Source of the DNA: a virus
DNA: 33,293 bases
Reading direction: 5' to 3' (one strand)
IMG/VR virus record: IMGVR_UViG_3300027983_000060
Coordinates: 1 to 33,293 of that record
How positions within the stretch are numbered: position 1 is the stretch's first letter; each line of letters starts with the position of its first letter. Made by a program: the position numbers and the translations under genes. Positions 16,401 through 29,872 of this stretch are shown one piece after another. The notes below the pieces were generated by a model, which worked only from the letters and a program-made list of their open reading frames with translations, did no database searches and had not been told where the DNA came from.

Positions 16401-17253
16401 TACCACGTAATCCGCTTGACAACATAGTGAGTGGAATTGCTAATCCGGTTCCGCGCAAATTTGTATCTAGATTTGCACCAGTTGTGCTTACGCTAATGGA
16501 TAATAGGGATCCATTAGCAATAGCACTATCTGTTTCTAATTGAAAGAACGCGGAAGTAGAAGTGCCATTTGGTACCACTTCTATTATAGTGGCTGTATTG
16601 AGTTGGTTTGTTTGGAATGCTGTTCTATTTGAGCCTGTACCACTGAATTGTGCTTGTATTCTGCGTGCGTTTCCGATTATATTGCTGTTACCAGTTACAC
16701 CTAATGTTGAACCATCCCACGTTAAATTGGCACTGCCGCCGAATGCGCCGACATTGTTGAATTGAATTTCTGTGTTTGCTCCACCTGGTATAGTACCACT
16801 ACCGTTACTTGCTGCTGTGATGCGACCATATGCATCAACTGTCAAATTTGGGTTTGTGTATATAGCAGGAGTTACTGCTGTTGTAGCTAAGTCTACTGTG
16901 ATAATGCCGCTTGATGTAATTGGGCTACCACTTGATGTAATGCGTCCAGCAGTACCATCTACTGTTACGCTTGAAACTGTCCCGAATACCAATGGCGGGC
17001 CTAATACGCCGCTGTTTAAAACTCTTACAACTAAGTTATTGCTGTTATCTAATGATAACCATCCAGCGTTACCGGTTGTCGTATTTGTTAGACCATGCAC
17101 ATATGGATCACCTGGAGTTGGGCTGCCGCCTGCAGTTGGATATAGTGCTGATGCTACTAAATTTACATATTGAGTTGTAGCTGCTGAATAATTGGTGTCA
17201 CCAGTAGTAGGCCACAATACAGTCTGCCCTGAAACTATTACGGGTGTTGTCAT
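13480..17253 (-). CDS. Fibre protein 1, long modular repeat protein
   Basis: 1257 aa, the largest protein here, starting behind CGAGGATTAACA. The N-terminus (VLWPTTGDTNYSAATTQYV) is the probable virion-attachment part. Most of the protein is beta-rich modules low in charge. One module, about 97 residues, contains GVTSFNTRTGAVTLTSLDV then TFTPYDDTNPAGY and GTVTSVTAGVGLNGG; four copies of the SFNTRTG part occur. Modules with ITVDAQGRITLAANG recur many times. Two related non-repeat blocks (about 170-320 and 970-1130: NAGAFG-like start, SNR-F-QT) look like duplicated folded domains. The last about 70 residues are distinct. Likely a trimeric fibre 5' of the beta-propeller gene and co-translated with it. 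Confidence 0.87.
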   Translation of the reverse strand: MTTPVIVSGQTVLWPTTGDTNYSAATTQYVNLVASALYPTAGGSPTPGDPYVHGLTNTTTGNAGWLSLDNSNNLVVRVLNSGVLGPPLVFGTVSSVTVDGTAGRITSSGSPITSSGIITVDLATTAVTPAIYTNPNLTVDAYGRITAASNGSGTIPGGANTEIQFNNVGAFGGSANLTWDGSTLGVTGNSNIIGNARRIQAQFSGTGSNRTAFQTNQLNTATIIEVVPNGTSTSAFFQLETDSAIANGSLLSISVSTTGANLDTNLRGTGLAIPLTMLSSGLRGIRIEPLGNVVLGGTAALTTTATDRFVYLNSMNGTPTGVPTVPSGYSGKNPITIDYANDRLYFYSNSAWHAAGTGSGSVTSVATGIGLTGGPITTTGTIDLANTAVTPGVYTSADITIDAQGRITSAANGTAGGVTSFNTRTGAVTLTSLDVTDALTFTPYDDTNPAGYTTNTGTVTSVTAGVGLNGGAITASGTIDLADTAVTPGVYTSADITVDAQGRITLAANGTAGGVTSFNTRTGAVTLTSLDVTDALTFTPYDDTNPAGYTNNTGTVTSVTVNGTAGRITSSGSPVTTSGAITVDLDTTAVTPGSYTLTDITVDAYGRITAAANGTGGGSGTVTSIDITGADGVTSLGGPITTSGAITVGLGAITPTSVAASGTVTGSNLSGTNTGDQTITLTGGVTGSGTGSFAATVITNANLTGDVTSIGNATTLANTAVTAASYTNADITVDAQGRITLAANGTAGGVTSFNTRTGAVTLTSLDVTDALTFTPYDDTNPAGYTNNTGTVTSVTAGVGLNGGAITSSGTIDLADTAVTAASYTNADITVDAQGRITLAANGTAGGVTSFNTRTGAVTLTSLDVTDALTFIPYDDTNPAGYTNNTGTVTSVTAGVGLNGGAITSSGTIDLADTAVTAASYTNADITIDAQGRITLAANGSGGTPAGANTEIQFNNAGAFGASSNLIWDGSKVGVTGNIELVGTARRITADMSNSTASNRLVFQTSTTNGFTAPIFAPNGTSTDTGLNVQNNSDINNCGAMLIACSSTEGYLQSYKRGTGTALPMVFRNAAAKALTISVDTNPNIVLGYTSALPAASTEGFLWLQTVQTVPTGVPIDPVGFTVGSKIPFVVNTTDGKLMKYFGGAWVEVVNTGIAQNSQSANYTCVLDDASKHIFHPASDANARTFTIPANGSVAYPIGSTLSFVNMTSQVVSVAITTDTLYLGGAGTTGTRSMAQYSVATALKITSTNWIITGTGLT
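14516..15097. repeat. 291-bp tandem duplication inside fibre 1 (two copies, related dispersed copies)
   Basis: Copy A is 14516-14806 and copy B 14807-15097; they differ at only a few positions. Strongly similar partial copies lie at about 15590-15790 and 15885-16085 with other sequence between. The period is 97 codons, matching the protein module, so the array can expand or contract in frame. Confidence 0.92.
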
Positions 17254-17294
17254 TGTTAATCCTCGAAATTTATACTATATTTATGCAAATGATA

Positions 17295-17335
17295 AAGCCC
17301 CAGTCCTGTTAAGGATATGGGGCTTGTTACAAGTT
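17295..17335 (-). terminator. Hairpin terminator after the major capsid gene
   Basis: On the minus strand the stem AAGCCCC (17335-17329) pairs with GGGGCTT (17301-17295). The loop contains a second short pairing (TCC with GGA). It is followed by TATCATTT, a weak U-rich tract. It sits just past the capsid stop and before the fibre 1 ribosome site, so it would limit read-through from capsid into fibre. Confidence 0.75.
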
Positions 17336-17341
17336 AATTAA

Positions 17342-18604
17342 TTAAAATGTAATACCAGTGAACTTCACGCATGATGCTGGCTTCTCAACCAATAGCGACT
17401 GTGCGCTATATAGGCGGAATGTAAAGCCTGCTGTGCTTGGATTCTGGATGAACACTTGACCATTGTCTGTACCTGGGATATTGAAGCTAACTTCAGTTGA
17501 TCCAATACGTACTGCACGGTCTGTAGGTAACATAAAAGCTTCGCCTTCTTTTACATACTTGTGTGCGTATACAGTGATCTTGCCGTTCTGGCTGTAAAAT
17601 TCCAATGCTTCGAAACCATTGCTGGCTTTCTTAGAACTGTATGAACTGTCGAACATACGGAACGCAACTTGCTCATTAGATAATGACTGCCATACACTTG
17701 GGTTAACGTAGATGGATACATCTTCGCTCAATCCACGTGCTGCTGCTGTTGCAACTCCAGCTTGAATCTTAGCAAGTGTCAACGCGCCAGAGACTGCTGA
17801 TGTGTTTGCTTTCCATAGCGAGTAAACTGCTGCGTCAATGCCGAACAATGTACCTGTGTTGGTCATGATTTTGTCTAGTCCAACTGCTTCGTCTGCACCA
17901 TCGCTACCTGCGCTATAGAAACGCAACCAACCACCAACTTCACCTGCTTCTACTGCTGTAATGTCGCCTGCTGCACCAGTAACAGTAATTGATTTACCAA
18001 CTACGTCAATTGATGCTACAACTAATGGAGCGGCTGTGTTTAAGTGTGCTGCGGCTGAGCTATATGCGTCCAACGATGCACCTTCCAACGGTGTCCACAA
18101 ACCAGCAGACCACTGTCCAGCTGCAAATGTGATGGTTGTCGATGTTGCGGATACGTTTGTAGCCAATAGCATTTCACCTAAGCCTGTTGCTGCCTGACCG
18201 TATAGCAAAGCCATTTCGATTCTACGACCAAAGGATTCCATAGCGTCTTGCATAACAAGTGCTGTAGCTTCTTTGAAACTGTTTGCGTTGTTCGAACGCG
18301 ATACTGCTTCGTACGAAATGCCACTGTTTTCGATGATTTGGAATGCTCCTAACGATGCATTACGTGTCTTCATTGAACTTGGTACTTCGATAGCAAACGC
18401 ACCATTATCTGGGCGGCTATATGTAAAGCCTTGTTCCGAGCGTACAATAACCGGTTGGTTATAAGTGAGACCAAGTAAGTGCTCGCGTCCTTGGAATTTG
18501 ATTGCTTTAACTAAAAGACTTTCGTCTGGGATTAAGTTAATAAGGTCGGAAGCATAAACTTCCTTAAATAGACCATTTAGGTCTGTTGTTGTGGTTCCAG
18601 CCAT
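17342..18604 (-). CDS. Major capsid protein (HK97-fold type)
   Basis: 420 aa, start ATG 18604 with CAAGGAG upstream. Directly follows the scaffold gene, as expected. The N-terminal part (FKEVYASDLINLIPDESLL) resembles the N-arm of podovirus coat proteins. The central region has a strand-rich insertion (about 155-235, ATSTTITFAAGQWS onward). VSIYVNPSVWQSLSNEQ (about 296-312) and the strand AFMLPTDRAVRIG (about 356-368) fit the spine helix/P-domain pattern of coat proteins. The C-terminus ends in beta strands. The gene is bracketed by a 14-bp inverted repeat upstream and a terminator downstream, unlike other late genes. Confidence 0.9.
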   Translation of the reverse strand: MAGTTTTDLNGLFKEVYASDLINLIPDESLLVKAIKFQGREHLLGLTYNQPVIVRSEQGFTYSRPDNGAFAIEVPSSMKTRNASLGAFQIIENSGISYEAVSRSNNANSFKEATALVMQDAMESFGRRIEMALLYGQAATGLGEMLLATNVSATSTTITFAAGQWSAGLWTPLEGASLDAYSSAAAHLNTAAPLVVASIDVVGKSITVTGAAGDITAVEAGEVGGWLRFYSAGSDGADEAVGLDKIMTNTGTLFGIDAAVYSLWKANTSAVSGALTLAKIQAGVATAAARGLSEDVSIYVNPSVWQSLSNEQVAFRMFDSSYSSKKASNGFEALEFYSQNGKITVYAHKYVKEGEAFMLPTDRAVRIGSTEVSFNIPGTDNGQVFIQNPSTAGFTFRLYSAQSLLVEKPASCVKFTGITF

Positions 18605-18715
18605 GATATAATTCTCCTTGAATAATGGCGTTAATAAAAATTACTCTATTTGTACCAGTTTTCCAATTTGTGGAGTTTACCCTCGGGGCTCGTAAAATCT
18701 TCTAACTAAGTGTTT
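18605..18715 (-). promoter_or_regulatory. Capsid gene 5' leader
   Basis: About 110 bases between the large inverted repeat and the capsid start, long for this compact genome. It ends in a strong ribosome site (CAAGGAG). A weak hairpin is possible on the minus strand at 18676-18696 (TTTAC with GTAAA around a GC-rich loop). No convincing promoter was found; -10-like TATAAA occurs further upstream beside the inverted repeat, without a good -35. Confidence 0.4.
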
Positions 18716-18757
18716 GTTATAGATTCGAATGTACCCTTAGGCTTTCGAATCTATAAC
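18716..18757 (-). other. 14-bp perfect inverted repeat between scaffold and capsid genes
   Basis: GTTATAGATTCGAA (18716-18729) is the exact reverse complement of 18744-18757, with a 14-base loop. There is no U tract after it in the minus direction, so it is not a standard terminator. It could be an RNA processing or stability hairpin that separates capsid mRNA from the upstream transcript, or a protein-binding site. Confidence 0.85.
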
Positions 18758-18774
18758 TGTATTTATACAAATGG

Positions 18775-19656
18775 TTACTTTCTCTTAAAGTATTCCCTTG
18801 GAGATACTACTTTCTTGTCCTTATCACGTGGTTGAATGTTAGTGTTAACCGACTTTGGTACTACTCTTTCTTTCATTCCGCTGCTTAGTGTAGACTTTGC
18901 TACCTTACGCATTGTATCTGCACCTAAGAACATTTCTATTTGCTGTTCTGACATACCACCCATAAAGGATTTAAAGTCTGTTACATAATCGTTACGCACA
19001 TACTCAATTACATCCTTTGGAGTTACATCATTGTAACCTGCTTGCAATGCTGCCTGCATATAGTACGCGATACGACCAACTGTACGCTCTGTTCTCGGTA
19101 ATCCAGCAGTTTCCAGTGTTCCAACAATTTCTTGCTGGATGTGCTCTGTATAACGTGCCATTTCTGTTTCAGTTTGTTCGCGTTCATACTCTTCTCTTGC
19201 AGACTTTTCACTTAGTTGATACTGTTCCAATTGACGCTTATAGTCTCTAAGTTCTTTTTGATCTTTACTAAGCATTGCTTCGTCTAAATCGTCTTGAATT
19301 ACAGACTCGGCAAATGCGCGTGCATCCTTACCAAGTAACTTGAATGCTTCGCGTGGATTATCGCGGAAAATGCTTAATACTTTCTCTGCTTCCTTACGTG
19401 TCATCCCTGCTTCCTGCATCTTCTTCTCTGCTGCCTTATTATGGCTATAGCCTCGACGCAGTTCGTCCTCGTCTACCTCCATTTCGCTACCATCGACTGT
19501 TACCTTATACATACGCTTAAGAGTTTCTGCTTTAGTTTCTCCTGGTGCTGCACCTGGTACATTGTTTGTTGGCTGGTTCTTAGACTGCGAGCCAACTCCT
19601 TGTGGTTCGTTTGATGTTTCTGAACTTACTTCTGTGTTTACTACGTTTTCTTCCAT
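18775..19656 (-). CDS. Capsid scaffolding protein
   Basis: 293 aa, start ATG 19656 behind GCAAAGGACGATA. It lies between portal and capsid genes, the usual scaffold position. The N-terminus is disordered and polar (about 1-40), followed by YKVTVDGSEMEVDEDELRRGY (about 50-70, split by a Val-rich strand), an element common at the start of podovirus scaffolds. A long charged coiled-coil stretch follows (about 125-170), and the C-terminus is basic (DKDKKVVSPREYFKRK), suited to capsid binding. Role: guides procapsid assembly and leaves before packaging. Confidence 0.87.
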   Translation of the reverse strand: MEENVVNTEVSSETSNEPQGVGSQSKNQPTNNVPGAAPGETKAETLKRMYKVTVDGSEMEVDEDELRRGYSHNKAAEKKMQEAGMTRKEAEKVLSIFRDNPREAFKLLGKDARAFAESVIQDDLDEAMLSKDQKELRDYKRQLEQYQLSEKSAREEYEREQTETEMARYTEHIQQEIVGTLETAGLPRTERTVGRIAYYMQAALQAGYNDVTPKDVIEYVRNDYVTDFKSFMGGMSEQQIEMFLGADTMRKVAKSTLSSGMKERVVPKSVNTNIQPRDKDKKVVSPREYFKRK

Positions 19657-19703
19657 TATCGTCCTTTGCTTAGATTATGGTTGGGTGCTCCATTATGGTT
19701 TAC

Positions 19704-19718
19704 ACCCAAATTTTGGGT
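19704..19718. other. 15-base palindrome at the portal stop
   Basis: ACCCAAATTTTGGGT has 7-base arms around one T and touches the last base of the portal stop codon. It lies in the 61-base portal-scaffold gap. No U tract follows on the minus strand. It may be a minor mRNA hairpin; significance is low. Confidence 0.55.
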
Positions 19719-21808
19719 TATACTGGTTGTGCCAGTTCTGGTCTTTCGCCTGTTAAAGCGTTTGCTGGTGAATTTGGCATGTTTACCTTACTTGCCTTCT
19801 CTTGCACTTGCGGATTAGGTCCGTTACTTGCACTCATCGTAGTAGCGGCTGCTTGGTTATTTCCAATTTGCTGTTGTTGTGGCATACCACTTGGTGCTGC
19901 ACCTGGTAAGCTTGGCTGGTTAGTAAGCATACGGAAATTTTGATACATCGGGTCACTTAACATCATGATGTGCTCTTGAATGTGTTGTGCCAACATACCA
20001 AACCTTTCCGGATCCATCCTAATCTGCGGATCACTTGCAAGTGCTGTGTGTTCCTGTATGTGTAAAATATGCTCGTCTGTAAACAATACTGGAACTTGCT
20101 CTCCATCCAATAACAGTTCGTTCTCGCTTGCTAAGTTAAGCAATACACTTGTTGGGCCTTGTATCATTGGTTCCAACGATCCTGTTTCTAATACCATTAG
20201 ATACTCTGCTGCTGTAGTAATAATTTGATTCTGCAATAAATCCTGTGCAATACTTAGTCTACCTGAAACTGTTTTGCTTAGTGGATTACCTGCCTGTACC
20301 TGTACTCTACTAATTCCACTAATGTCTTCATTTGTGAAACTCTGTTGTACAATACCTTTATTACGTTTGCCAGCAATTTGGATAATACGCGGTGTATTAG
20401 CATAGTCTTGCATGATTTGAATAGTAGCAGTGCCTACATCTTCCAATAGTTGTATGTATGACTGTTGTAACGGAGCATTGAATTGTATTGCCATAGATTG
20501 AACTAATGCAAGTGCCGAACCAGACTTTAGTGATGCTTCTGGGTTACCACGACTTACACTATTAACACCCGAGATTGTTTCCATATCCTGTTGCAATTGT
20601 AACATTGCTTTAAACAGCCCATCCGGTGCTGTTGGCATAATCATTACTTCTGGTTTGCCGCTTTGTGCATTATAGCTGATTGCTTGAAACCCCTGGCTTA
20701 GTGTGTCCGCCATAATGTTACTACCAGTTGGCAATAGAATTTTAGGAATACTAAAGTTTTCGTTAATTGAAAGAATTGTACTATAGTGCGCATCTAACAT
20801 TTCCTGTAACGGAAGTAAGTCTAAGCTAACAGACATACCCATTGGAGTGCCTGGTTGGTCATTTGCTACAATTCTATGTATTGGCAAGTGCTTATAAAGC
20901 AGAATGCTGTCTGTTAATACTGTGCCGTCTGGTAACATAGTAATTTGTCTACCTTCTGGGCATGCCGGGGACTTTACGTGGTAGAAATTCAGCACACTAA
21001 TAAGATCAGTTTCTATACTTCTATCCATAAACTGCCCAGCCATGTAGTGGTTAACATTGCTTACACCTAAGTTACAGTCGATAATCTCATCCTGATACTC
21101 TGTATAACGTTTAGCAAGATCATACTTGTTCTCATATGTGCGTAATACAATCCACGAACGCTGGCTGAAGTGCTTAAGGTTTGGATCACGTACTACGTCT
21201 ACTGGCTCATGACTGGAATACTTAATATCACCGTCGTGGCGTTTTTCACCAGTGTCTTGGTCTTGTGCAATTGCATTACCGGCTTGTGGTTCCCAGCGTT
21301 CACTAACGAAACCCTCGGTAAACAACAATGCATTTCGTGTTGCATCTCGTAAGTGACGTTCTACACGCTTTTCGCGCATCATATAATCCAATACACCTGC
21401 TGCAATAATAGTTTGCTTTTGGCTTGAACTATCACTGTTAGTGCTTTGTGGTTGCCAAGCAGGACGGTCTGTAATGGATAGTGTTTGGATATGTTCCAGT
21501 AAATTACGGAAGTGATTTACTTTAATTGTCCTATACTCGTTACTTTCGCCTGCCATAATTGTTTGACCAGCAACATACCTGTTTGGATTGTATGCATAGT
21601 AAAGTTTTCTCCAGTTCTCGAACCAGTTACTTGTTTTGCAGAATGTCCAATAATCGTCGCAACGCTTAAGAATTTCATCAGCACATTCCCTTGTAGGTGC
21701 CGCTGCAAAATATTTAAGTGCCCAATCGTCTTCCACTTGTTTGTCGTACAGATCTTCATCTAAGTTTTCGTCCACTATGGGATCGTTATTACCAAATTGT
21801 TCCATCAT
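19718..21808 (-). CDS. Portal protein
   Basis: 696 aa, with ATG overlapping the previous stop as ATGA. Size and position (after terminase, before scaffold and capsid) fit podovirus portals of the large P22-like kind. Recognisable parts are the N-terminal helical region (DDWALKYFAAAPTRECADE), the wing segment (KVNHFRNLLEHIQTLSITDRP, followed by AWQP), and the clip/stem-region helices preceding ISGVNSVSRGNPEASLKSG, a strongly conserved-looking portal element at about 410-430. The C-terminal about 100 residues are Gln/Pro-rich with helical character and may form a barrel. It is the DNA channel at one capsid vertex and the docking site for terminase and adaptor. Confidence 0.92.
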   Translation of the reverse strand: MMEQFGNNDPIVDENLDEDLYDKQVEDDWALKYFAAAPTRECADEILKRCDDYWTFCKTSNWFENWRKLYYAYNPNRYVAGQTIMAGESNEYRTIKVNHFRNLLEHIQTLSITDRPAWQPQSTNSDSSSQKQTIIAAGVLDYMMREKRVERHLRDATRNALLFTEGFVSERWEPQAGNAIAQDQDTGEKRHDGDIKYSSHEPVDVVRDPNLKHFSQRSWIVLRTYENKYDLAKRYTEYQDEIIDCNLGVSNVNHYMAGQFMDRSIETDLISVLNFYHVKSPACPEGRQITMLPDGTVLTDSILLYKHLPIHRIVANDQPGTPMGMSVSLDLLPLQEMLDAHYSTILSINENFSIPKILLPTGSNIMADTLSQGFQAISYNAQSGKPEVMIMPTAPDGLFKAMLQLQQDMETISGVNSVSRGNPEASLKSGSALALVQSMAIQFNAPLQQSYIQLLEDVGTATIQIMQDYANTPRIIQIAGKRNKGIVQQSFTNEDISGISRVQVQAGNPLSKTVSGRLSIAQDLLQNQIITTAAEYLMVLETGSLEPMIQGPTSVLLNLASENELLLDGEQVPVLFTDEHILHIQEHTALASDPQIRMDPERFGMLAQHIQEHIMMLSDPMYQNFRMLTNQPSLPGAAPSGMPQQQQIGNNQAAATTMSASNGPNPQVQEKASKVNMPNSPANALTGERPELAQPV

Positions 21809-22071
21809 TTACCCTTAATTGCAAGCTGTAACTTAAGAGATTCGAGTTCCGTTTTGGTGATCGCGATGGTCTCCCATGTTTTGTTTATCCGCTCATCGAA
21901 TTGTTTGTGCAACTCTTTAGCGGCAACAGCAAGTGCAGCATCAGCTGCTCCATTATTTATAGAGTTTCTTAGGTTAATTTCTAATTGCCGCTGATCTAGA
22001 TACTTATTAAGCAAGTAGAAACTCAATGCTGCAACTATTAGTAATACTAATGGCCAAACAATGAAACTCAT
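21805..22071 (-). CDS. Small membrane-anchored coiled-coil protein (possible inner-membrane spanin)
   Basis: 88 aa. An N-terminal membrane segment (about 4-21, IVWPLVLLIVAALSFYLL) is followed by a charged, helical region with heptad-like spacing. That is the topology of an i-spanin (Rz) or of small anchored phage proteins. No nested Rz1-like lipoprotein frame with a lipobox was recognised, so the spanin idea is only one option. ATGA overlaps join it to both neighbours. It lies between packaging and portal genes. Confidence 0.7.
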   Translation of the reverse strand: MSFIVWPLVLLIVAALSFYLLNKYLDQRQLEINLRNSINNGAADAALAVAAKELHKQFDERINKTWETIAITKTELESLKLQLAIKGK

Positions 22072-22307
22072 TTGTTTTCCTGTTTTGCATATTCTTCCTG
22101 CGAACGTTTGTCGTATGCTTCTTGTGCTTCGACAAATGCTTGCTTACCGAATTGTGCAAGTGTAATAGTTGGATAGTTTGGATCTACTACTTTACTTTCA
22201 GTTACGACGCCGTCCTCAACTGTAATTGACTCCAATCCATACATACCCATTGGTGCGCGTGTTACTCTGTGGAATATTCCACTTACCTTTACTTTCTCTT
22301 TTTTCAT
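22068..22307 (-). CDS. Small protein of unknown function
   Basis: 79 aa, start behind AAGGAGAATTAGT and overlapping the previous stop as ATGA. It has a basic N-terminus (MKKEKVKVSG), a short beta-like middle (YGLESITVEDGVVTESKVV) and a charged helical tail (EAQEAYDKRSQEEYAKQENK). No family recognised. Its coupling to neighbours makes it a genuine gene. Confidence 0.7.
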   Translation of the reverse strand: MKKEKVKVSGIFHRVTRAPMGMYGLESITVEDGVVTESKVVDPNYPTITLAQFGKQAFVEAQEAYDKRSQEEYAKQENK

Positions 22308-22555
22308 ACTAATTCTCCTTCTCTTTTAAGTTTCGCTCTAAGTTGTGTTAATGTTCCGCTCCAATAATTTGTACATTTTGCTGTACTTTTAAGTGGAGGG
22401 TCTCCCCTAGTTGTTACTGGTCTATTCCTCTGTGTTGACTCTTTATTACATGCTACACAAGCACTGGAACTCTTTAATCGTATCGAATAACCGTCGTCAT
22501 TTACGTGACCGTTAACACAAGGCTTACCTAAATAGTGTGTGTGCTTTAGTGACAT
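22304..22555 (-). CDS. Small zinc-finger-like protein
   Basis: 83 aa. Residues 10-39 contain C13-x3-H17 and C33-x2-C36 (GKPCVNGH ... CVACNKE). This is the zinc-binding pattern often found at the front of phage HNH/endonuclease VII-type proteins, but the catalytic His-Asn-His part is absent. The rest is basic (LRAKLKREGELV). Likely binds nucleic acid. Its start lies within the last 10 bases of the upstream gene. Confidence 0.75.
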   Translation of the reverse strand: MSLKHTHYLGKPCVNGHVNDDGYSIRLKSSSACVACNKESTQRNRPVTTRGDPPLKSTAKCTNYWSGTLTQLRAKLKREGELV

Positions 22556-22797
22556 GGTTCATCTGTTGTTCTGTTGATTAAATTGATAGCATCGAATACA
22601 AGTTTGGATAATGCTACATCCTCTGCATTGTCCTCACCATATAATGCAACACTAATTGTATATAATAGTGGTTGAACAACTGCGACATAATCCTCGAGCT
22701 CTTGTTTACGTTCTAATATATTATCCAATACTTCTTTAGCAATTTCGCTTGCTTCTAATGTTTTAATAGTTTCTACTAATGATGGTAGCTTTTTCAT
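22546..22797 (-). CDS. Small helical protein of unknown function
   Basis: 83 aa, beginning one base after the large-terminase stop behind AGGAGATAAG. Almost entirely helical and acidic (SLVETIKTLEASEIAKEVLD; ILERKQELEDYV). No domain recognised. Its location suggests a packaging or morphogenesis accessory, but this is from context only. Confidence 0.7.
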   Translation of the reverse strand: MKKLPSLVETIKTLEASEIAKEVLDNILERKQELEDYVAVVQPLLYTISVALYGEDNAEDVALSKLVFDAINLINRTTDEPCH

Positions 22798-22798
22798 C

Positions 22799-24271
22799 TT
22801 ATCTCCTAAAACTCATACCCTTACGTGGGTTGAATATTTGTTGTAATTCTCCAATTTGACCAGTATGCTTATTTTGTATCAGCGGATCAATAAAATGTGT
22901 ATGTATGTTTGCATTTCTAATTAGAGGTAACGGATCACTTGTTTCGTCTACATTGCGAATTAAGTATATAAGTGCGGCACAGTGGTCATAGTGACCGTAT
23001 ATCTTACTACGTGCAAACTTATCGCGTGATTTAGCCCACCAAGCACTTGCTGCACTTCTAAGTACAAACTCTGCAGCTGGTAGAAACTCTATGCGTTCGT
23101 CGAATATCCAGTCCCGCACTTTTTGTACCATTTGACTTTCTAACTTACTCTTGCTTGTACTTACGAATGGTAGACCATATGTGTTAATCATTTCCTGTTG
23201 AATAAGCACATTGTTACTATCGCATATGTAACGTATGTCTTTGCGATGTTCTGTAGTAGGCCAGAGTTCCTTTACCTTATCCTTAATGGCTATTGCAATT
23301 CTACCACTGCTTATTTCAGCACCACTTAGATCTAAATGGTCTTCTACAATTACAGACTTGGCACGATAATCATAGTAAGCAAATATAACTGCGGTCTTGT
23401 CTTTACCGCCCCAATCGACAACCACATACTTGGTATAGTACTGATGCAGGTCATCTACGATTTCGCGTGTTTTTTGTAGTATTTTGAGGCTTACTTCGTG
23501 TGTTAGCTCTGGTATCACTTGTAGACTTGATTCAGCGATACGCTGACATTCGTACTCACGTTTGAATAGTGTTGTATCCTGTCCTCTACAATCCTGTATA
23601 ATTTTGTTTAGTTGCTTTTCAGTTAAGGACTTATCGTCGTGAATTGTATATGTGCTAATGTGTCCAGACTCTTCGTGGTCTTTTAGAATATCTTGGTAAG
23701 GATGATCTAAGTTCTCGGGTGGTGTAGATGCAAAGATAAGTTTACCACCCGTTGTTTTCAACATAGGTGTTACAGATGGTAGAACACCAATGTCTAAGTC
23801 TGCCATGAATCCTGCTTCGTCTAATAATACTTGATGTGCTTTACCACCGCGTAAGTTAGCATAGTTCTTATTGTCAGTTCCTGCAAGTCTAATACGGCTA
23901 CCATTGCTGAATGCTAATGCACTACCGTCCAGCACTGGAATAAGTTCCTTTGGTGCATCTGCGAATATAGTGCGAAATGTGGCTTCTGTTACAATTTCTA
24001 TTACTTGGCTCTTAAGTGGTGCAATGTACGCAATGGTGGTGTAAGGTTCTCTTAGACACTCTTCTACTGCTATTGTAAACATGATAAACGACTTTCCGAA
24101 TTGTCTCGCACAGTCAATTACATAACTGTTACTGTCTATATCGTCACTTGCTAGAACTTCTCTAATTTTGTCGTAGATGGGTCGTTGATGTGGATACAAC
24201 AGATGGCGAAGGATTCCTCTATGGAAGAGTTCCTCTTTAATTTGCTGTTTAGTTAAGGTTATCTTCGCCAT
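22799..24271 (-). CDS. terL: Terminase large subunit
   Basis: 490 aa. N-terminal ATPase: Walker A-type ARQFGKS at residues 55-61, coupling region IAYIAPLKSQV (about 80-90), Walker B VLLDEAG at 148-154, and the motif FASTPPE. C-terminal RNase H-type nuclease: first acidic site in VVVDWGGKDKTAV (about 295), a second acidic position in YICDSNN, and a late Asp in HYDHCAALIYL near the C-terminus. Together these form the packaging motor and the headful or site-specific cutter. The start lies 23 bases inside the small-terminase gene. Length is normal for the family. Confidence 0.96.
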   Translation of the reverse strand: MAKITLTKQQIKEELFHRGILRHLLYPHQRPIYDKIREVLASDDIDSNSYVIDCARQFGKSFIMFTIAVEECLREPYTTIAYIAPLKSQVIEIVTEATFRTIFADAPKELIPVLDGSALAFSNGSRIRLAGTDNKNYANLRGGKAHQVLLDEAGFMADLDIGVLPSVTPMLKTTGGKLIFASTPPENLDHPYQDILKDHEESGHISTYTIHDDKSLTEKQLNKIIQDCRGQDTTLFKREYECQRIAESSLQVIPELTHEVSLKILQKTREIVDDLHQYYTKYVVVDWGGKDKTAVIFAYYDYRAKSVIVEDHLDLSGAEISSGRIAIAIKDKVKELWPTTEHRKDIRYICDSNNVLIQQEMINTYGLPFVSTSKSKLESQMVQKVRDWIFDERIEFLPAAEFVLRSAASAWWAKSRDKFARSKIYGHYDHCAALIYLIRNVDETSDPLPLIRNANIHTHFIDPLIQNKHTGQIGELQQIFNPRKGMSFRR

Positions 24272-24764
24272 CGTCGAACTCGATACTTTCTATTAGTTCA
24301 GCATCACTTATATTTCCGGCTGGACGTGTAGATAACTCCAGTTTAATCTCTTGGCGTTGAATTTCACCTGATAACAACTTATCTAAGTGAATAGCGGCAT
24401 TTAAATTGCCCGCTTCAGCATGTTGATATATCATTGCACGCACTCTGGACCCACATTCCGCACGACCATCATTAAAAGCGCTCAAGAACGCAGGGTTATC
24501 TAATATAGTCATTTCAGTAGTAGAATATACTCCAGCAATGTTTTTCATGCTGATACCAGCTTTCGCTAAGTTGAATACTTCTTCTGATCGCATAATCAGC
24601 TTAGGCTTTTGACCAGTTTCTTTCCAAGCAATAAGTTCGTTAATGCTCATATGAAATGGATTGTCGCGTTTGAAGTTGCCAGTTGTTTCTACTGGCATGA
24701 ATGTATCTGCCTTGCGTCCGCCCGCTGGAGAATATTTCTTCTTTGGTTTTTCTTCTTCTGACAT
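24249..24764 (-). CDS. terS: Terminase small subunit
   Basis: 171 aa, start ATG 24764 behind AGGAAGATAC. After a basic, disordered N-terminus (about 1-35), residues about 59-86 (SEEVFNLAKAGISMKNIAGV) form a helix-turn-helix typical of small terminases (DNA recognition), followed by a helical oligomerisation region (about 95-135) and an acidic tail (IESIEFDDGEDNLN) that would contact the large subunit. It is the first gene of the late minus unit and overlaps the large subunit. Confidence 0.88.
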   Translation of the reverse strand: MSEEEKPKKKYSPAGGRKADTFMPVETTGNFKRDNPFHMSINELIAWKETGQKPKLIMRSEEVFNLAKAGISMKNIAGVYSTTEMTILDNPAFLSAFNDGRAECGSRVRAMIYQHAEAGNLNAAIHLDKLLSGEIQRQEIKLELSTRPAGNISDAELIESIEFDDGEDNLN

Positions 24765-24855
24765 GTATCTTCCTGCTACTGGTTTACAGGTTAGTTTGTT
24801 GCTCTATGATTAGTTTACAACACGCTTATTTATCTCATTGCAAAAATTGTAGTCG

Positions 24856-24906
24856 TTAAAAAGCCAACACAACAGTCCCTAAGGTAAAGGGAGCCGAAGT
24901 GTTGGC
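24856..24906 (-). terminator. Intrinsic terminator ending the replication unit
   Basis: On the minus strand GCCAACAC (24906-24899) pairs with GTGTTGGC (24870-24863), then TTTTT follows at 24862-24858. Inside is a second stem (TCCCT with AGGGA, 24892-24876) with a 7-base loop, separated by a 6/5-base internal loop. It lies between the early genes and the small-terminase gene and would separate early and late transcription. Confidence 0.82.
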
Positions 24907-25049
24907 AGAATCTAAAGGATTATTATGACTTATTTACGCTATTATTTACCTCTCATGTAGCCAAGCAATGCTAAGCATAGTTGTCATTGGATTTTTCACG
25001 TTTTTTGGCGTATTTGACACCTGCTTGCACGTTATAGATACTCAACTGC
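24907..25049. other. Spacer after the 65-aa gene
   Basis: About 140 bases with no established gene. The minus strand carries the tail of a 37-codon frame (24971-25084). The plus strand has an 11-codon frame at 24927-24962 behind AAAGGATTATT, probably chance. No clear promoter for the late unit was identified here or in 24765-24855. Confidence 0.4.
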
Positions 25050-25084
25050 TTACTGCTTTTGTTCTGTATGCGAATCATCTCCAT
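24971..25084 (-). CDS. Possible 37-aa basic peptide overlapping the 65-aa gene
   Basis: ATG 25084 (or 25078) opens a frame ending at TAG 24973-24971. The peptide is strongly basic (SIYNVQAGVKYAKKREK) and overlaps the end of the upstream gene by 35 bases in another frame. The ribosome site is poor: GGAG sits directly against the second ATG. The frame could be chance or reached by frameshifting; it is listed because the extra-genic part looks protein-like. Confidence 0.25.
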   Translation of the reverse strand: MEMIRIQNKSSKQLSIYNVQAGVKYAKKREKSNDNYA

Positions 25085-25247
25085 CAAAAATATCCAATTG
25101 GGTTCGAAAGTCTTCTACAGTCCATCCATTCTCGATAATATATGCATCCGAGTATTCATCGAACTTGTCCTCTATCAGTTTCATTCGGGCTTGTTCTTTA
25201 TATGACAATGTTCGCAAGTGATCTAACATTTCTTTAAATTCTTTCAT
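25050..25247 (-). CDS. Small acidic helical protein of unknown function
   Basis: 65 aa from ATG 25247 behind TAAAGGAATCAAA; a longer frame to 25283 lacks a ribosome site. Helical (FKEMLDHLRTLSYKEQARMK) with an acidic C-terminus (IFDGDDSHTEQKQ). It lies between the repeat-rich origin candidate and the early terminator. Directly upstream are two copies of ATTGGCAGTA. Confidence 0.7.
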   Translation of the reverse strand: MKEFKEMLDHLRTLSYKEQARMKLIEDKFDEYSDAYIIENGWTVEDFRTQLDIFDGDDSHTEQKQ

Positions 25248-25274
25248 TTTGATTCCTTTAGTTGTTTGTTTAAC

Positions 25275-25297
25275 TACTGCCAATATTTACTGCCAAT
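25275..25297. repeat. Direct repeat of TACTGCCAAT, 13-base period
   Basis: TACTGCCAAT occurs at 25275-25284 and 25288-25297. On the minus strand (ATTGGCAGTA) this pair lies 28 bases before the 65-aa gene start. A tandem site with this spacing could bind a regulator. No good -10/-35 pair was found beside it. Confidence 0.7.
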
Positions 25298-25359
25298 TAA
25301 TCATACTAGAAGTGCTGGTGATTTTCTGTTGTTGTTGCTATCGCTAAATGTTGCATAAT

Positions 25360-25590
25360 TAAAAAATAGCACGAAATAGCACGATTAGCACGGGTAGCAC
25401 ACCACGCGTACACGCATACATATATATATAAGAATACATAACAAAACTTCGTATTAGCATATGCCATGCTACTTTGCTACTTTTCACTCAAATCACCTCT
25501 AAGAATGTTGTTTTTATTGGGTTTTTCGTGATTTTTACCCGTGCTACTATGCGTGCAACTTTTGCATGCTACTTTTTAAAAGTTGCACTT
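25360..25590. other. Candidate replication origin: iteron-like, AT-rich non-coding region
   Basis: No credible gene covers 25248-25568. TAGCAC(G) occurs four times with 9-10 base spacing (25368, 25378, 25387, 25396). TAGCACGGGTA at 25387-25397 returns inverted at 25537-25547. CATGCTACTTT occurs at 25466-25476 and 25565-25575, and GCTACTTT is tandem at 25469-25484. A 10-bp inverted repeat (GTGCAACTTT, 25554-25563 with 25579-25588) closes the right end. An alternating stretch (CATATATATATA) near 25420 would melt easily. It lies directly beside the helicase gene. Iterons plus an AT-rich melting region are classic origin features; function is inferred. Confidence 0.55.
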
Positions 25591-25736
25591 GTTAGAGTTT
25601 TCTTTTTGTCGAATACTAACCCGTGAATTTCAACATAATACCTTAAAATATCTACTCGTTGTTGAGACGATAAATTCTCATCGTTGATAGTATTTTCCAA
25701 AAATCTTCTATAACTTTGTGCTTGTGATCTATTCAT
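25569..25736 (-). CDS. 55-aa protein of unknown function
   Basis: ATG 25736 has an excellent ribosome site (GAGGAG, 7-base gap) and overlaps the helicase stop by 8 bases, the same overlap length as two other gene pairs here. Product: a basic small protein starting MNRSQAQSYRRFLEN, with DEN-SSQQRVDILRYYVEIHG and a basic end (FDKKKTLTSATFKK). It ends inside the right edge of the origin candidate, so a link to replication initiation is possible but unproven. Confidence 0.72.
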   Translation of the reverse strand: MNRSQAQSYRRFLENTINDENLSSQQRVDILRYYVEIHGLVFDKKKTLTSATFKK

Positions 25737-27150
25737 TTTCGTTCTCCTCTTCTATTCTGTCTTCTTCCCTACCTTCTATTTCCGCCCATACTCGTTTCTT
25801 ATTATCTCTTGATAATGCTCTCCATCCACGATGCGATCTCTGCGTTATCTTACTCTTAGTAGGTTTGTCTTTTTCATCGCCGGAGGCTTTGTAATCCGCC
25901 TCCATCTTCCACCACAACTTACGTATTTTTTCTGCATGCTCCACAATTGGATCCACAACTTCTTTCCCATCAATTTGTAAATCCTGCCTCTGTTTTAAAA
26001 ACCACATTGCTAATTTACATCCTGCCTCTGCATATTTAATATTAATGGTTTTATGTTCGTCGAATATAGCAAATGTAGCAGCCAACCTAACTGCGTGTTC
26101 GTACAACCTGGATATAAAGTTTTGATACTCTATGTTACATGGATCATGCATTGCAGCGCCCATTTTATTATAGAAGTCTATCATAACTTGTTCTGCACCG
26201 TCTTTCTTATCGAACTCTATTAAATCGAGTATCAATTGATTTGGCTCAACATCTTGATTATATTGAGCCGCTGCTGCATGTTGTTTTATTTGGGTTTTTA
26301 TAACCTTTTGCAACAAATGTAGTATCTTATCATGGAATGGATCAAGTGCTGCCTGGGTGTGTTTAATACTACTTAGGGAGGCGGATGTTACATATGGTTT
26401 TTTAAATAGTTCTGCTTGAGTGATAAGAATGCGGTTTGTGAAACCTTGATCCTTATATCTGTTATCTACGAGAAACCCAGCCATTTGTTGTTGTAATAAC
26501 ATCAACATATTAAACCGTCTATCGGTAAGTTCCACATTATCATCCTCTATACCTGTATTGCGTTCGATTTTTTCCCCCGACCACAGTTTCGACAACATAC
26601 TAATCATTTCCATAGACTTATTACTATCTTGGAAACTGTGACTGTTAAAGAACTCCGCTGCGTCTGTATTAAGCAAACATGAGAACGGCACACCTCTGAG
26701 CGTATTGATGATACCATTTGTTGTTCCTTTCTCGATACGCACTTTATGTCCGCGTGGGCGTTCAGGTAATGTTGGATAAGGTAATGTTGGGTCTTTTACT
26801 ACTGCTTCGACATCTTTAAGATATTTTTTCTTATCTACCAGGTATGCTGTTATATCTTGTTTCGTTGCCAACTTTTGTTGCTTCTCGAAATCCTTAATGC
26901 CGTCGAGTGTGTAGTCGGTAACACCCGATTTCATCCCACCACTTGGCACAAGTATCATAAAGTATTCAGACACAGGACATCGTTTCCACATAAGAGGGTT
27001 GGCGTCATTTAATCCTTGTGTTGCAAAGTTGGCGATAGACAATACTATGGGGATGGTCATCTCGTCCGGTGCGTTTGTTAGTTTCCCCAGTGCATCTACT
27101 GTATCTATTATTAGTTGTGGCAATAATGCCTTTGTCGTTTTATCTATCAT
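25729..27150 (-). CDS. DUF3987-type helicase-like replication ATPase
   Basis: 473 aa from ATG 27150, which overlaps the previous stop as ATGA (an in-frame ATG at 27156 is the alternative). The element SEYFMILVPSGGMKSG (residues 61-76) matches the DUF3987 nucleotide-binding loop 'PSGxxKS', with Met in place of the usual Gly before Lys. Next come a charged helical insert (about 85-125), a likely Walker B region (CLLNTDAAEFF, about 157-167) and a sensor-like FNMLMLLQQQ. DUF3987 proteins are RecA-fold ATPases found beside prim-pol-type primases in phages and plasmids, where they act as replicative helicases. The very acidic C-terminus may recruit partners. Confidence 0.83.
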   Translation of the reverse strand: MIDKTTKALLPQLIIDTVDALGKLTNAPDEMTIPIVLSIANFATQGLNDANPLMWKRCPVSEYFMILVPSGGMKSGVTDYTLDGIKDFEKQQKLATKQDITAYLVDKKKYLKDVEAVVKDPTLPYPTLPERPRGHKVRIEKGTTNGIINTLRGVPFSCLLNTDAAEFFNSHSFQDSNKSMEMISMLSKLWSGEKIERNTGIEDDNVELTDRRFNMLMLLQQQMAGFLVDNRYKDQGFTNRILITQAELFKKPYVTSASLSSIKHTQAALDPFHDKILHLLQKVIKTQIKQHAAAAQYNQDVEPNQLILDLIEFDKKDGAEQVMIDFYNKMGAAMHDPCNIEYQNFISRLYEHAVRLAATFAIFDEHKTINIKYAEAGCKLAMWFLKQRQDLQIDGKEVVDPIVEHAEKIRKLWWKMEADYKASGDEKDKPTKSKITQRSHRGWRALSRDNKKRVWAEIEGREEDRIEEENENE

Positions 27151-27623
27151 TTCCATCCTTCATCTTTATACATATCCCATATCTTCTGTTTTGATTCTAA
27201 TTCTGTGCTGCACGGTGTGTTATTAAACACATTTGAGTACTCGTCTGTGTCCTTTTCAACTAACCAGTAGTAACTGTTGTTAACTTCTGTTATTGATAGC
27301 CTATCTTTGCCTAACTTTCTAAATGTATTTTGTTCAGATTCGTGCCATCCGTTTACATAAAAGTTCTTCCTGCTTGTTGCTAACTTTTTAAGTTCTTCTT
27401 CTCTGGCACTACCGACACCTTTATACTCCTCTGACATTTTTTCAGCACAGTCACACCCTGTGCTTATTGCTCCTATTTCCAGGTGTTCCATTGTGTGCTT
27501 GTACCGAACTACAGGATTGCTGCACATCTCACATTTGAAATAATTGCCCTCACCTAAGTCTTCTATATTTGTGTTAATCCACCCTTTGTGTGGGTAACCT
27601 CCCTTCCATATAAACGCACTCAT
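27147..27623 (-). CDS. Zinc-ribbon-like small protein
   Basis: 158 aa. C31-x2-C34 and C57-x-C59, with His43 and His47 between (FKCEMCSNPVVRYKHTMEH, then GCDCAEKM), match a small family seen in phage replication regions whose pattern is 'CExC...IRYxHxxxH...GCxCA'. It probably binds metal and nucleic acid or a protein partner. It is coupled to genes on both sides by 4-base overlaps. Biochemical function is not established as far as I know. Confidence 0.82.
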   Translation of the reverse strand: MSAFIWKGGYPHKGWINTNIEDLGEGNYFKCEMCSNPVVRYKHTMEHLEIGAISTGCDCAEKMSEEYKGVGSAREEELKKLATSRKNFYVNGWHESEQNTFRKLGKDRLSITEVNNSYYWLVEKDTDEYSNVFNNTPCSTELESKQKIWDMYKDEGWK

Positions 27624-27988
27624 AGCAACTCCGCCTCAGTTAATGCTTCGATAACGTCAATATACTTCTCGGTTGCCAATACGAAGTCACACCACTTGTC
27701 ATCAATCTTATCTGACACCACACCCGCATCTTTAAAATCCTTTTTGTAGTCGAACGGGATATTGCCTTTCAGTTGTATCCATTCAGGGTTTGTGACTTGT
27801 AAGTGTTTCAGTGGGTGATTATCAATGTCTTCTGTTCTCACCTCGAAGTGTTTTTCCTCGTTGTTCCACTTAGCACCAGATGCTTTAGCATGTTCCTTCT
27901 CTGGTGCTGGTATCCTAAGTATGTATAGTTCACCTTTAGTGGAATTGTTTGCTTTCATTGCTCTTGCTATTTCTAATAATTTACTCAT
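27620..27988 (-). CDS. DUF5710-like small protein
   Basis: 122 aa, start behind AAAGGAAACAAA and overlapping the primase stop by 8 bases. Residues about 20-50 (LYILRIPAPEKEHAKASGAK, then WNNEEKHFEV) fit the 'L-x-V-P-x-x-E-K-x-x-A-K-x-x-G-A-x-W-D-x-x-x-K-x-W' pattern of DUF5710-type modules, which occur next to DNA-processing domains. The remainder is helical. It probably helps the primase or helicase, judged from context only. Confidence 0.76.
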   Translation of the reverse strand: MSKLLEIARAMKANNSTKGELYILRIPAPEKEHAKASGAKWNNEEKHFEVRTEDIDNHPLKHLQVTNPEWIQLKGNIPFDYKKDFKDAGVVSDKIDDKWCDFVLATEKYIDVIEALTEAELL

Positions 27989-28922
27989 TTTGTTTCCTTT
28001 TTAGTTTATTCATTAAATTGTCCATAAAGTTTTGGTCTTTATACTTCGCTTGTTTTCTATACCTCGGATTGTGTTGTCGAATCATAAAGTATAGCGTGCC
28101 GATGGATATGTCATCCCTTGTACGACCTGCTATCATCACTTCATATTTCCCGGCCAACCTGCTATCATCCCATCTGCTCCTCATGAGTTGGATTGTATCT
28201 GCTTCGCTGCACTCACTAAGCACTGCCCATGTGACATCGCGTCGCACATCGTAAGGCAGCGAAGGGTAATACTTGTGCAGTTCGTCTAAAATTTCGCCAA
28301 TTTCTTTCGAATTTAGCGGTGTAGATGACCCGCTATATACTTGCGGTGCAGGCCTCGCCGCAAGTATAGCACCCCGTGCAATATATGCCTCTACAACACC
28401 CTCTGATGTTAACACTCTGCCTGTTGTTTCTTTCTTAACAGCGTTGATAGTTCCAAAGAACAACCTTGCCGGATCTTTACAACTAATGTCGGCCGCACCA
28501 TGCACTGCGAGTAGACTTTCGTATAATACTCTCATGTCTTCTGCAACTGTGATAGGTGATTCCAACATATACACTAACCTGAATCTGTTATCTGTATCTG
28601 TATGCGACGGTGTTGTATAATATCCACTTCCGTATTTTTGATAAAACTCGTGCGTTTCTAACTGCTTTATTGACATGCCTTTATCAATATCGACCAATGC
28701 TAATTGTTGTGACACAAAGTCTGTTTCGATCCGGTGATCTGTTTTTAGTGCGCAGGTCATGGCGTGACCGAGTGTAGTGAGCACCTCAAACACTTCGTCG
28801 AATTCGAACTCACCTGTTACCCATCCGTGACTTAGATAGACTCGCTGTCCATTTATAGTAGCGATCCTATTATCATCGAATATGGGCTTACCGATTATTT
28901 TTGGATGAAAACTTATTAACAT
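27981..28922 (-). CDS. Archaeo-eukaryotic-type (prim-pol-like) DNA primase
   Basis: 313 aa from ATG 28922 behind GAGGAGG; a GTG-started extension to 28955 is unlikely. Catalytic pattern of the AEP superfamily: motif I in LALVDIDKG (Asp78 and Asp80), motif II in TTPSHTDT (Ser106-His107), and motif III probably in the stretch ISCKDPARLFFG (Asp150, with Asp145 nearby). The C-terminal third (YYPSLPYDVRRDVTWAVLSE) is a helical accessory domain like those following prim-pol cores. It makes primers, and perhaps short DNA, for replication with the DUF3987 helicase. No polymerase gene accompanies it. Confidence 0.84.
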   Translation of the reverse strand: MLISFHPKIIGKPIFDDNRIATINGQRVYLSHGWVTGEFEFDEVFEVLTTLGHAMTCALKTDHRIETDFVSQQLALVDIDKGMSIKQLETHEFYQKYGSGYYTTPSHTDTDNRFRLVYMLESPITVAEDMRVLYESLLAVHGAADISCKDPARLFFGTINAVKKETTGRVLTSEGVVEAYIARGAILAARPAPQVYSGSSTPLNSKEIGEILDELHKYYPSLPYDVRRDVTWAVLSECSEADTIQLMRSRWDDSRLAGKYEVMIAGRTRDDISIGTLYFMIRQHNPRYRKQAKYKDQNFMDNLMNKLKRKQNE

Positions 28923-28974
28923 TGTTCCTCCTCGTAATAAGCACGACTTCTGCACAGTGACTTATGGATGGCAT
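28888..28974 (-). CDS. Possible 28-aa leader peptide overlapping the primase start
   Basis: ATG 28974 has GGAG six bases upstream and opens a 28-codon frame (begins MPSISHCAEVVLITRR) that runs through the primase ribosome site and ends 32 bases inside the primase gene. Translation of this leader could open or block primase initiation. It lies at the end of the structured leader. Plausible but short. Confidence 0.35.
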   Translation of the reverse strand: MPSISHCAEVVLITRRNNVNKFSSKNNR

Positions 28975-29003
28975 TTTTAACTCCAGAGTTATGGATATAA
29001 ATT

Positions 29004-29238
29004 AAACCCCAGAAGTTATTATCTTTTTCTTGTCGCAGGGGCACCATACTTGCTATGGGCGGAAGTTCGGGATCTCACTCCTTTACTCAATCGAAAGCCC
29101 CAGTGAAGGGGCGATCGAAAGTGAGATTTTGCGACAAGAAACGAAGCAAGAACTGCTTCAGCCGAAAAGGCCAATAAAGGCCGATTCGGGGTTTCAGATT
29201 TTAACTCAGACTACATATAGCAAGAACTGCTACATGCA
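29004..29238 (-). ncRNA. Highly structured leader or small RNA upstream of the primase
   Basis: No gene fits here, yet base pairing is extensive. P0: AAACCCC 29004-29010 with 29188-29194. P1: TTTCTTGTCGCA 29026-29037 with 29130-29141 (12 bp). Within P1: P2 29041-29060 (7 bp, one bulge), P3 ATCTCACT 29072-29079 with 29120-29127, and P4 GCCCC/GGGGC 29097-29112. After P1: P5 29143-29159 and P6 29162-29189 (CCGAA and GGCC stems). Outside: P8 29212-29238. P5 and P8 share GCA-AGAAC-TGC (plus strand). P8 gains two G-U pairs on the minus strand only, giving 11 bp, and sits at the start of the minus transcript. P3 gains two G-U pairs on the plus strand, so strand choice is favoured, not proven. Confidence 0.6.
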
Positions 29239-29240
29239 TA

Positions 29241-29269
29241 TTTATACACTACTCAGTCAAATCAGTCAA
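29241..29269 (-). promoter_or_regulatory. Sigma70-type promoter for the primase unit
   Basis: Minus strand: TTGACT (29269-29264), 17-base spacer, TATAAA (29246-29241). Each hexamer matches 5 of 6 consensus bases. The predicted start near 29234 falls at the first leader hairpin. TTGACTGA is repeated with a 9-base period across the -35 region, which might be a regulator site. Confidence 0.75.
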
Positions 29270-29278
29270 CTTACCGAG

Positions 29279-29455
29279 TTACTTTCTGAACTTTTTACCC
29301 AAAGTCGTGTACAAGTAATCCATCATTTTCTTTCTACCAACCCATGCCTCATACGACTGTGTTTTCATCTCTACACCGTCCAATGTAACTTTAGCCACAG
29401 TCCTGCATTTATTTTTTAGCACATCCACCAGATATTGTTCTTTACTTAGGTCCAT
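29279..29455 (-). CDS. 58-aa basic protein of unknown function
   Basis: ATG 29455 has GGGAG five bases upstream; a TTG extension to 29467 is rejected. The product is basic and probably alpha/beta (EQYLVDVLKNK, AKVTLDGVEMK, WVGRKKMMDYLYTTLGKKF). It is the first early gene on the minus side of the divergent control region, which is where regulators or host-takeover proteins often sit. No family recognised. Confidence 0.68.
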   Translation of the reverse strand: MDLSKEQYLVDVLKNKCRTVAKVTLDGVEMKTQSYEAWVGRKKMMDYLYTTLGKKFRK

Positions 29456-29486
29456 ATTTTCTCCCAACTTATTATGTTATTATTAT

Positions 29487-29524
29487 TATTATTTATCACG
29501 ATTGCCCACTATTGATAAATAATA
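29487..29524. promoter_or_regulatory. 12-bp inverted repeat: probable operator between divergent units
   Basis: TATTATTTATCA (29487-29498) and TGATAAATAATA (29513-29524) are exact reverse complements with a 14-base spacer. The element lies between the minus early genes and the plus operon. Its right arm covers the -10 of the minus promoter candidate at 29519-29547. Symmetric arms suggest a dimeric repressor or a mutually exclusive promoter pair. Confidence 0.65.
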
Positions 29525-29547
29525 CAGATAACTACACGAAAGGGCAA
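29519..29547 (-). promoter_or_regulatory. Candidate early promoter, minus strand
   Basis: TTGCCC (29547-29542), 17-base spacer, TATTAT (29524-29519): 4/6 and 5/6 matches to sigma70. It would drive the 58-aa gene. The -10 lies inside the inverted repeat. The plus-strand promoter is less clear; TTATCA ... TGA-TAAATA with 17-base spacing (29493-29521) is a weak extended -10 candidate. Confidence 0.5.
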
Positions 29548-29551
29548 GTAA

Positions 29552-29872
29552 ATGGATAACTTCGAAGAAGCAATTGCAGCGTACACACAAAAGAAAGAAT
29601 CTGTGATAACAGAATACACCACTATGCAAATCAACACACGCACTATAGACATTCGCAAATATAAAGGTAATAAAGTATTACCACCTGGATGCACTCACGT
29701 CAAACCAATGCGGGACACTCCACTGAAACGATGCAGAGTAATCACACCAGACGGAATATATGAATCCATTATCGCTGCGGCAGAGTTTTACGGCGTTACC
29801 CCAGCGGCGATAGCACATAGATGTGGTCATTGGACAAAACATAATTTTTATTACGAGGACATAAATGAATAA
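29552..29872 (+). CDS. NUMOD-like DNA-binding protein, one domain
   Basis: 106 aa, start behind AAAGGGCAAGTAA. Residues 61-101 read CRVITPDGIYESIIAAAEFY, GVTPAAIAHRC and end in NFYY. This is the 'V-x-T-P-x-G-x-F-x-S-x-x-x-A-A-x-x-x-G-V-x-x-x-x-I-x-x-R' pattern of NUMOD1-type helix-turn-helix modules that read DNA in phage homing nucleases. No GIY-YIG or HNH catalytic residues are present. The N-terminal 60 residues are unlike the next gene. First gene of the plus operon; perhaps a regulator acting on the adjacent inverted repeat (inference). Confidence 0.78.
   Translation: MDNFEEAIAAYTQKKESVITEYTTMQINTRTIDIRKYKGNKVLPPGCTHVKPMRDTPLKRCRVITPDGIYESIIAAAEFYGVTPAAIAHRCGHWTKHNFYYEDINE

Follow-up and report, generated by a model that had tools for sequence, protein, structure and literature searches.

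The window, i.e. the whole stretch of 33,293 nucleotides analysed here, is a 33.3-kb IMG/VR virus record with a terminase and a P22-type portal; one of its proteins weakly matches the SU10 capsid family, scoring under that family's cut-off. On the minus strand a non-coding region is flanked by a 58-aa gene (29279-29455) and a primase-like gene, and the genes from this region to the window end are co-directional (Table 1). A promoter-like TTGACT-17-TATAAA is found just upstream of the region, matches that good being frequent by chance, and the transcript would start near 29234 if this candidate is used. Between the divergent early operons there is an inverted repeat containing a TTA run (29475-29536), which is a possible origin or promoter region.

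Table 1. Features of the RNA and of the adjoining genes, in window coordinates
Feature	Position	Strand	Evidence
Conserved core: three-way junction closed by stem P1, with arms P2 and P3	29025..29142	-	fold z -6.42, covarying homologues
P1 5' arm UUUCUUGUCGCA	29130..29141	-	inverted repeat; compensatory changes in L007, L051, L087, L127
P1 3' arm UGCGACAAGAAA	29026..29037	-	inverted repeat, covariation
P2 5' arm AUCUCACUU	29119..29127	-	fold; 7/7 modelled P2 pairs vary on both sides
P2 3' arm GAGUGAGAU	29072..29080	-	fold, covariation
P2b and P2a hairpin, UCGAUC-GCCCC-UUCACU-GGGGC-UU-UCGA	29091..29118	-	P2a almost invariant, P2b covaries
P3 hairpin CCAUA-GCAAG-UAUGG	29044..29058	-	GCAAG loop in 4/5 distinct sequences
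P0 hairpin GAAGCA-GUUCU-UGCUUC, directly 5' of P1	29143..29159	-	
5'-terminal 11-bp hairpin, window only; loop and stem top common with P0	29212..29238	-	
Possible sigma70-type promoter TTGACT-17-TATAAA	29241..29269	-	10/12 matches
J3/1 GCCCC, possible pseudoknot 5' side, partner 29010-29006	29038..29042	-	tentative
GGGGU, possible pseudoknot 3' side; alternatively pairs with AAACCCC in window-only enclosing stem	29006..29010	-	tentative
GGAG ribosome-binding site and ATG of short ORF overlapping primase start	28972..28984	-	sequence
Primase-like gene, the replication operon's first long gene	27981..28922	-	phrog_2135 DNA primase, E 8e-8
DUF3987/helicase gene, downstream, same direction	25729..27156	-	

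Fold of the minus-strand RNA

Folding of the minus strand from 28990 to 29250 gives an MFE of -94.6 kcal/mol (z -7.64; 0 of 200 shuffles as low), the plus strand of the same region showing a weaker fold (z -5.93). The minus-strand MFE contains a three-way junction, an enclosing stem AAACCCC/GGGGUUU, hairpins and an 11-bp 5' hairpin (29238-29228/29222-29212) with two G-U pairs on this strand. The 12-bp stem closing the junction (29026-29037/29130-29141) is perfect in an inverted-repeat search, and the core folded alone (29025-29142, z -6.42) forms the three-way junction far beyond chance. Fold, G-U usage and gene order agree with the initial annotation in placing a large structured RNA on the minus strand upstream of the primase gene, and the 12-bp stem, the internal junction and the 5' hairpin are as described there.

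Two further elements of that description belong to the window only. The enclosing 7-bp stem is present in the MFE of 28990-29250 but is gone once a longer stretch is folded, and none of the homologous sequences compared carries it. Both hairpins with the GCA-AGAAC-TGC core exist, but the idea of a recurring protein- or RNA polymerase-binding element does not extend beyond the window, the doubled hairpin being absent from the homologues compared. A near-identical 16-nt repeat AGCAAGAACTGCTWCA (29145-29160 and 29219-29234), likewise seen in the window only, makes up the tops of the two hairpins. Since the enclosing stem and the repeated hairpin are unseen in homologues, we take the 118-nt core plus the one hairpin immediately 5' of it as the conserved unit.

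Two simpler assignments were rejected. P2a is followed by UUUC and is embedded in a larger conserved fold, and so does not fit an intrinsic terminator, which is a G+C hairpin with a U run after it. No conserved protein frame runs over the RNA, as no minus-strand ORF of at least 50 aa covers the core in L051 or L127, and the core lengths are 114, 118 and 119 nt.

Homologues, covariation and distribution

Homologues were found on five other IMG/VR contigs (L007, L051, L087, L064 and L127), the six records including the window amounting to five distinct core sequences, all metagenomic (the L064 core is identical to that of L127). L007 was obtained by blastn of the region against terminase relatives, and its RNA adjoins a homologue of the divergent window gene 29552-29872. 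The search for members relied on exact-pattern scans: the DNA pattern AGTGAGATCN{3,18}CGCCCATAG returned L007 and chance matches, nothing else, and the hairpin pattern GCCCCTTNANTGGGGCTTTC returned 109 stretches, mostly terminator-like, including L051, L087, L064 and L127. Among these hairpin-pattern loci the covariance model R1 identified L051 (E 2e-19), L087 (E 7e-19) and L064 (E 2e-9), and L127 was found subsequently by model search of the same loci. Among the matches listed, relaxed hairpin patterns added nothing but chance matches, comprising at least 96 new loci and three matches inside terminase-type genes. Pattern scans of genome contigs gave no match; with blastn the cores matched phage records over short hairpins only, and the window core matched no plasmid.

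L040 and L066 were not counted as members because of weak model scores and doubtful topology. L066 shows a different large fold round the same GCCCC-GGGGC hairpin (12555-12664); it is closed by a 12-bp stem, and the 3' arm of this stem overlaps the ribosome-binding site of an unassigned ORF of 119 or more aa.

The members have a common architecture with a core of 114-119 nt. P1 comprises 9-12 bp; P2 comprises 6-9 bp and leads over an asymmetric internal loop into P2b and P2a; P3 begins at a conserved CCGCC, and an A/U-rich linker lies 3' of P1. P2a and its surroundings (GAU(C)-GCCCC-UUNANU-GGGGC-UUUC) are almost constant, the P2a stem sequence being identical in all homologues, while every homologue whose sequence extends far enough upstream has, at the P0 position, a hairpin unrelated in sequence. 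Single members carry additional repeats: in L051 a AAAAGAWWAATACTAT-like direct repeat on the minus strand (5204-5219 and 5358-5373) flanks the RNA 5' of P0 and 3' of P1, and in L127 the minus-strand motif AUAAGUGGUCC / AUGAGUGGUCC is present twice, once where P3 ends on its 3' side and once in the linker (3179-3189 and 3218-3228).

Covariation was assessed across the five distinct sequences. In the alignment A4, 94.4% of cells pair compared with 74.8% after shuffling, both partners change in 19 of the 33 pairs (8.5 shuffled) and the covariation score is 0.561 (0.186 shuffled); none of 500 shuffles reached the pairing, the double-change count or the score, and sliding the partners by 1-3 columns left 0-5 double-change pairs. 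The check by covariation among homologues proposed in the initial annotation was thus passed, by shuffles and not by R-scape. A4 is a model-fitted alignment leaning towards the model, and each member was therefore also folded alone. Without constraints the window, L051, L087 and L127, i.e. four of the five distinct members, adopt the same P1/P2/P2b/P2a/P3 shape, and the MFE of L007 keeps P1, P2a and P3 with a differing P2. The z-scores of the five folded singly range from -5.1 to -6.4 and are better for the sense than for the antisense strand in every case. RNAalifold on the plain sequence alignment A7 misplaces P2, MAFFT misaligning its 5' arm, so the covariation count rests on A4, checked by the independent folds and by hand.

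The close pair L051/L087 differs by two compensatory changes, C-G to U-A in P1 and U-A to C-G in P3, and in P0 by A-U/U-A to G-U/U-G. Because the helices curated by hand hold six G-U and zero A-C pairs on the primase strand, the RNA was assigned to the strand of the primase gene. Judged by sequence comparison, the fold is a real RNA, its shape being kept while its letters change. Taken by itself, P2a looks like a common phage terminator, and most of the 109 pattern matches were due to it, as would be expected of a chance fold or a functionless terminator cluster; this explanation is contradicted by the shuffle test, the covariation across P1, P2, P2b and P3 and the five independent folds, and we regard it as extremely improbable.

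The distribution of the RNA looks patchy and modular, as it is missing from most close relatives of the window phage; the other terminase or portal relatives lack it where their contigs reach that far, so the operon does not depend on it. The records of L051, L087, L064 and L127 gave no match to the window portal or capsid proteins, in a comparison having no positive-control record and including some records that may be incomplete, and on this basis the RNA seems to occur in at least two phage backgrounds besides that of the window. Among phage records with a related primase, those checked lack such an RNA next to the primase.

Position in replication operons and probable function

The core is oriented sense to the following gene in each of the six records; the distance from its end to the first start codon of the replication operon is about 43-61 nt, and in the window this codon is the ATG of a short ORF overlapping the primase start. 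The downstream operons encode, where seen, a primase and/or a helicase of the D5/VapE/DUF5906/DUF3987 type. The primase-like proteins of the window, L064 and L127 are homologous with 30-39% identity, the L051 operon encodes a Prim-Pol (PF09250), and the helicase-type proteins belong to differing families (DUF3987, VapE-like, DUF5906). As an unassigned 171-aa gene precedes the VapE-like helicase in L007, the common factor is the replication operon and not one enzyme. The RNA is promoter-proximal in the window and L007, and lies within a run of co-directional genes in L051, L087 and L127, deep in the operon in L051 and L127.

A cis-acting leader fits best, because the sense orientation is fixed and the distance to the first start codon near-fixed. 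We therefore hold, with somewhat better than even confidence, that the RNA is an element of about 120 nt regulating in cis from the 5' or intercistronic leader of a phage replication operon. A regulatory leader for replication genes had been among the roles considered in the initial annotation, and the sense position upstream of the primase gene together with the covariation makes it the most likely one, the RNA probably being a control element in the leader of these genes. P0, the three-way junction P1/P2/P3 and the A/U-rich linker precede the ribosome-binding site of the first gene of the operon. In the proposed model the RNA would act in cis on the mRNA of which it forms the start; the invariant hairpin and the junction may be bound by a small molecule or by a protein of phage or host, and this putative binding would set translation or elongation of the replication genes.

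The near-invariance of P2a would also be expected of a site binding in trans, and the compact, very stable fold with a 5'-side hairpin in every member could suit a distinct small RNA, released by processing or transcribed on its own and acting in trans during infection, e.g. as a decoy or antisense regulator, in a logic like that of the phage P4 CI and P1 C4 RNAs, which arise from a leader preceding replication or antirepressor genes. We consider this unlikely, as no terminator follows the core, the distance to the start codon is always about 43-61 nt and Rfam holds no C4-type match even at permissive thresholds.

The constant neighbourhood of primase/helicase genes in unrelated phages, and the AT-rich, imperfect nature of the inverted repeat at 29475-29536 in the window, could instead point to a replication origin or a primase/primosome recognition site, working either as an RNA primer or in the form of folded single-stranded DNA. 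Such a site is decidedly unlikely in view of the fixed orientation and near-fixed start-codon distance, the G-U pairs on the RNA strand, the absence of iterons round the RNA in the four regions searched and a cumulative GC skew of the window without clear turn at the RNA.

Processive antitermination of the HK022 put or EAR type, in which the RNA would modify RNA polymerase soon after the early promoter, is quite unlikely as well. The promoter-proximal position in the window and L007, followed in the window by co-directional genes to its end, would suit it, and the A/T-rich stretch after P1 resembles, as an impression only, the -10-like element contained in putL (PMC9378689). However, the RNA sits deep in the operon in L051 and L127, and no strong terminator turned up on the minus strand when 17000-29000 was scanned, leaving little reason to expect antitermination. 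Moreover, HK022 put RNA is about 70 nt long and made of two stem-loops (PMC9378689), as opposed to the 118-nt three-way junction of the window. What the two have in common is being early, structured phage RNAs in a leader close to where an early operon begins; put acts through the nascent RNA alone, and the family described here has a 114-119-nt junction with other conserved elements, sometimes deep in the operon.

Switch-like pairings and relation to known RNAs

Returning to the cis-acting leader, the conserved, covarying, sensor-like domain that characterises riboswitches and translational operators is present in the predicted mRNA leader, as judged from covariation and sense position. Two pairings were examined as a possible expression platform. 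Hiding of the ribosome-binding site by the linker appeared good by eye but failed the shuffle test, being not stronger than with shuffled linkers. A five-base pseudoknot between J3/1 (29042-29038) and GGG (29010-29006) can be drawn by eye in the window and in L007, L051 and L087, the window differing from the others by a C-G to G-C change, and has a mismatch in L127; it beats shuffles (p<0.05) in L007 only, and blocking the putative pseudoknot strand opens the ribosome-binding site likewise in L007 only. The switch between competing GGGG and CCCC segments, as drawn in the initial annotation, is not supported, since its enclosing stem is not conserved and the switch tests were mostly not significant. 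As the switch-like pairings (Shine-Dalgarno hiding and pseudoknot) are not consistently above shuffled controls, the regulatory step is inferred. A more specific proposal, which we put forward tentatively and consider possible, is that the RNA represents a new regulatory class which unrelated phages carry as a module; its junction would sense a protein or other molecule tied to replication onset and switch the operon on or off, possibly via the J3/1-GGG pseudoknot.

Rfam 15 covariance models gave no match to the window or the five homologous loci at either curated gathering or permissive thresholds, in line with the initial annotation recognising no known class, and no description of the RNA was found in the literature, open-licence papers being those searchable. 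We conclude that the RNA represents a new family of leader RNAs, cis-acting on phage replication genes by a mechanism that is putative. It is similar to orphan riboswitch candidates and autogenous translational operators in combining a junction with few invariant nucleotides and a sense position shortly upstream of a start codon, but it is tied to phage replication genes instead of metabolism, and no significant expression platform was found. The P4 CI and P1/P7 C4 antisense RNAs are also structured RNAs preceding a phage operon, that of P4 carrying a primase-helicase gene; the window RNA differs from these in size and fold, has no Rfam match and lacks known target repeats. The pRNA of phi29 is a phage RNA built round a three-way junction, whereas the RNA reported here lies beside replication genes, is not tied to a packaging ATPase and has no Rfam match.

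Structured control RNAs are seldom described in phages, and a covarying RNA before the replication operons of unrelated phages suggests a common way to time phage DNA replication. The covariance model offers a concrete query for other viromes, and the element is small enough for reporter and binding assays.

Further hairpins were noticed in relatives of the window phage. L015, a relative without the RNA, has a strong terminator-like hairpin GATGCCCC...GGGGCATTTATTTT just before the primase gene (about 6670-6730), and L004 (7000-7480) and L006 (2360-2640) carry short repeated hairpin-like arrays in the corresponding non-coding region (GCGATAGCGAAT... and GGCGTTGCTTGCGTT... between the two).
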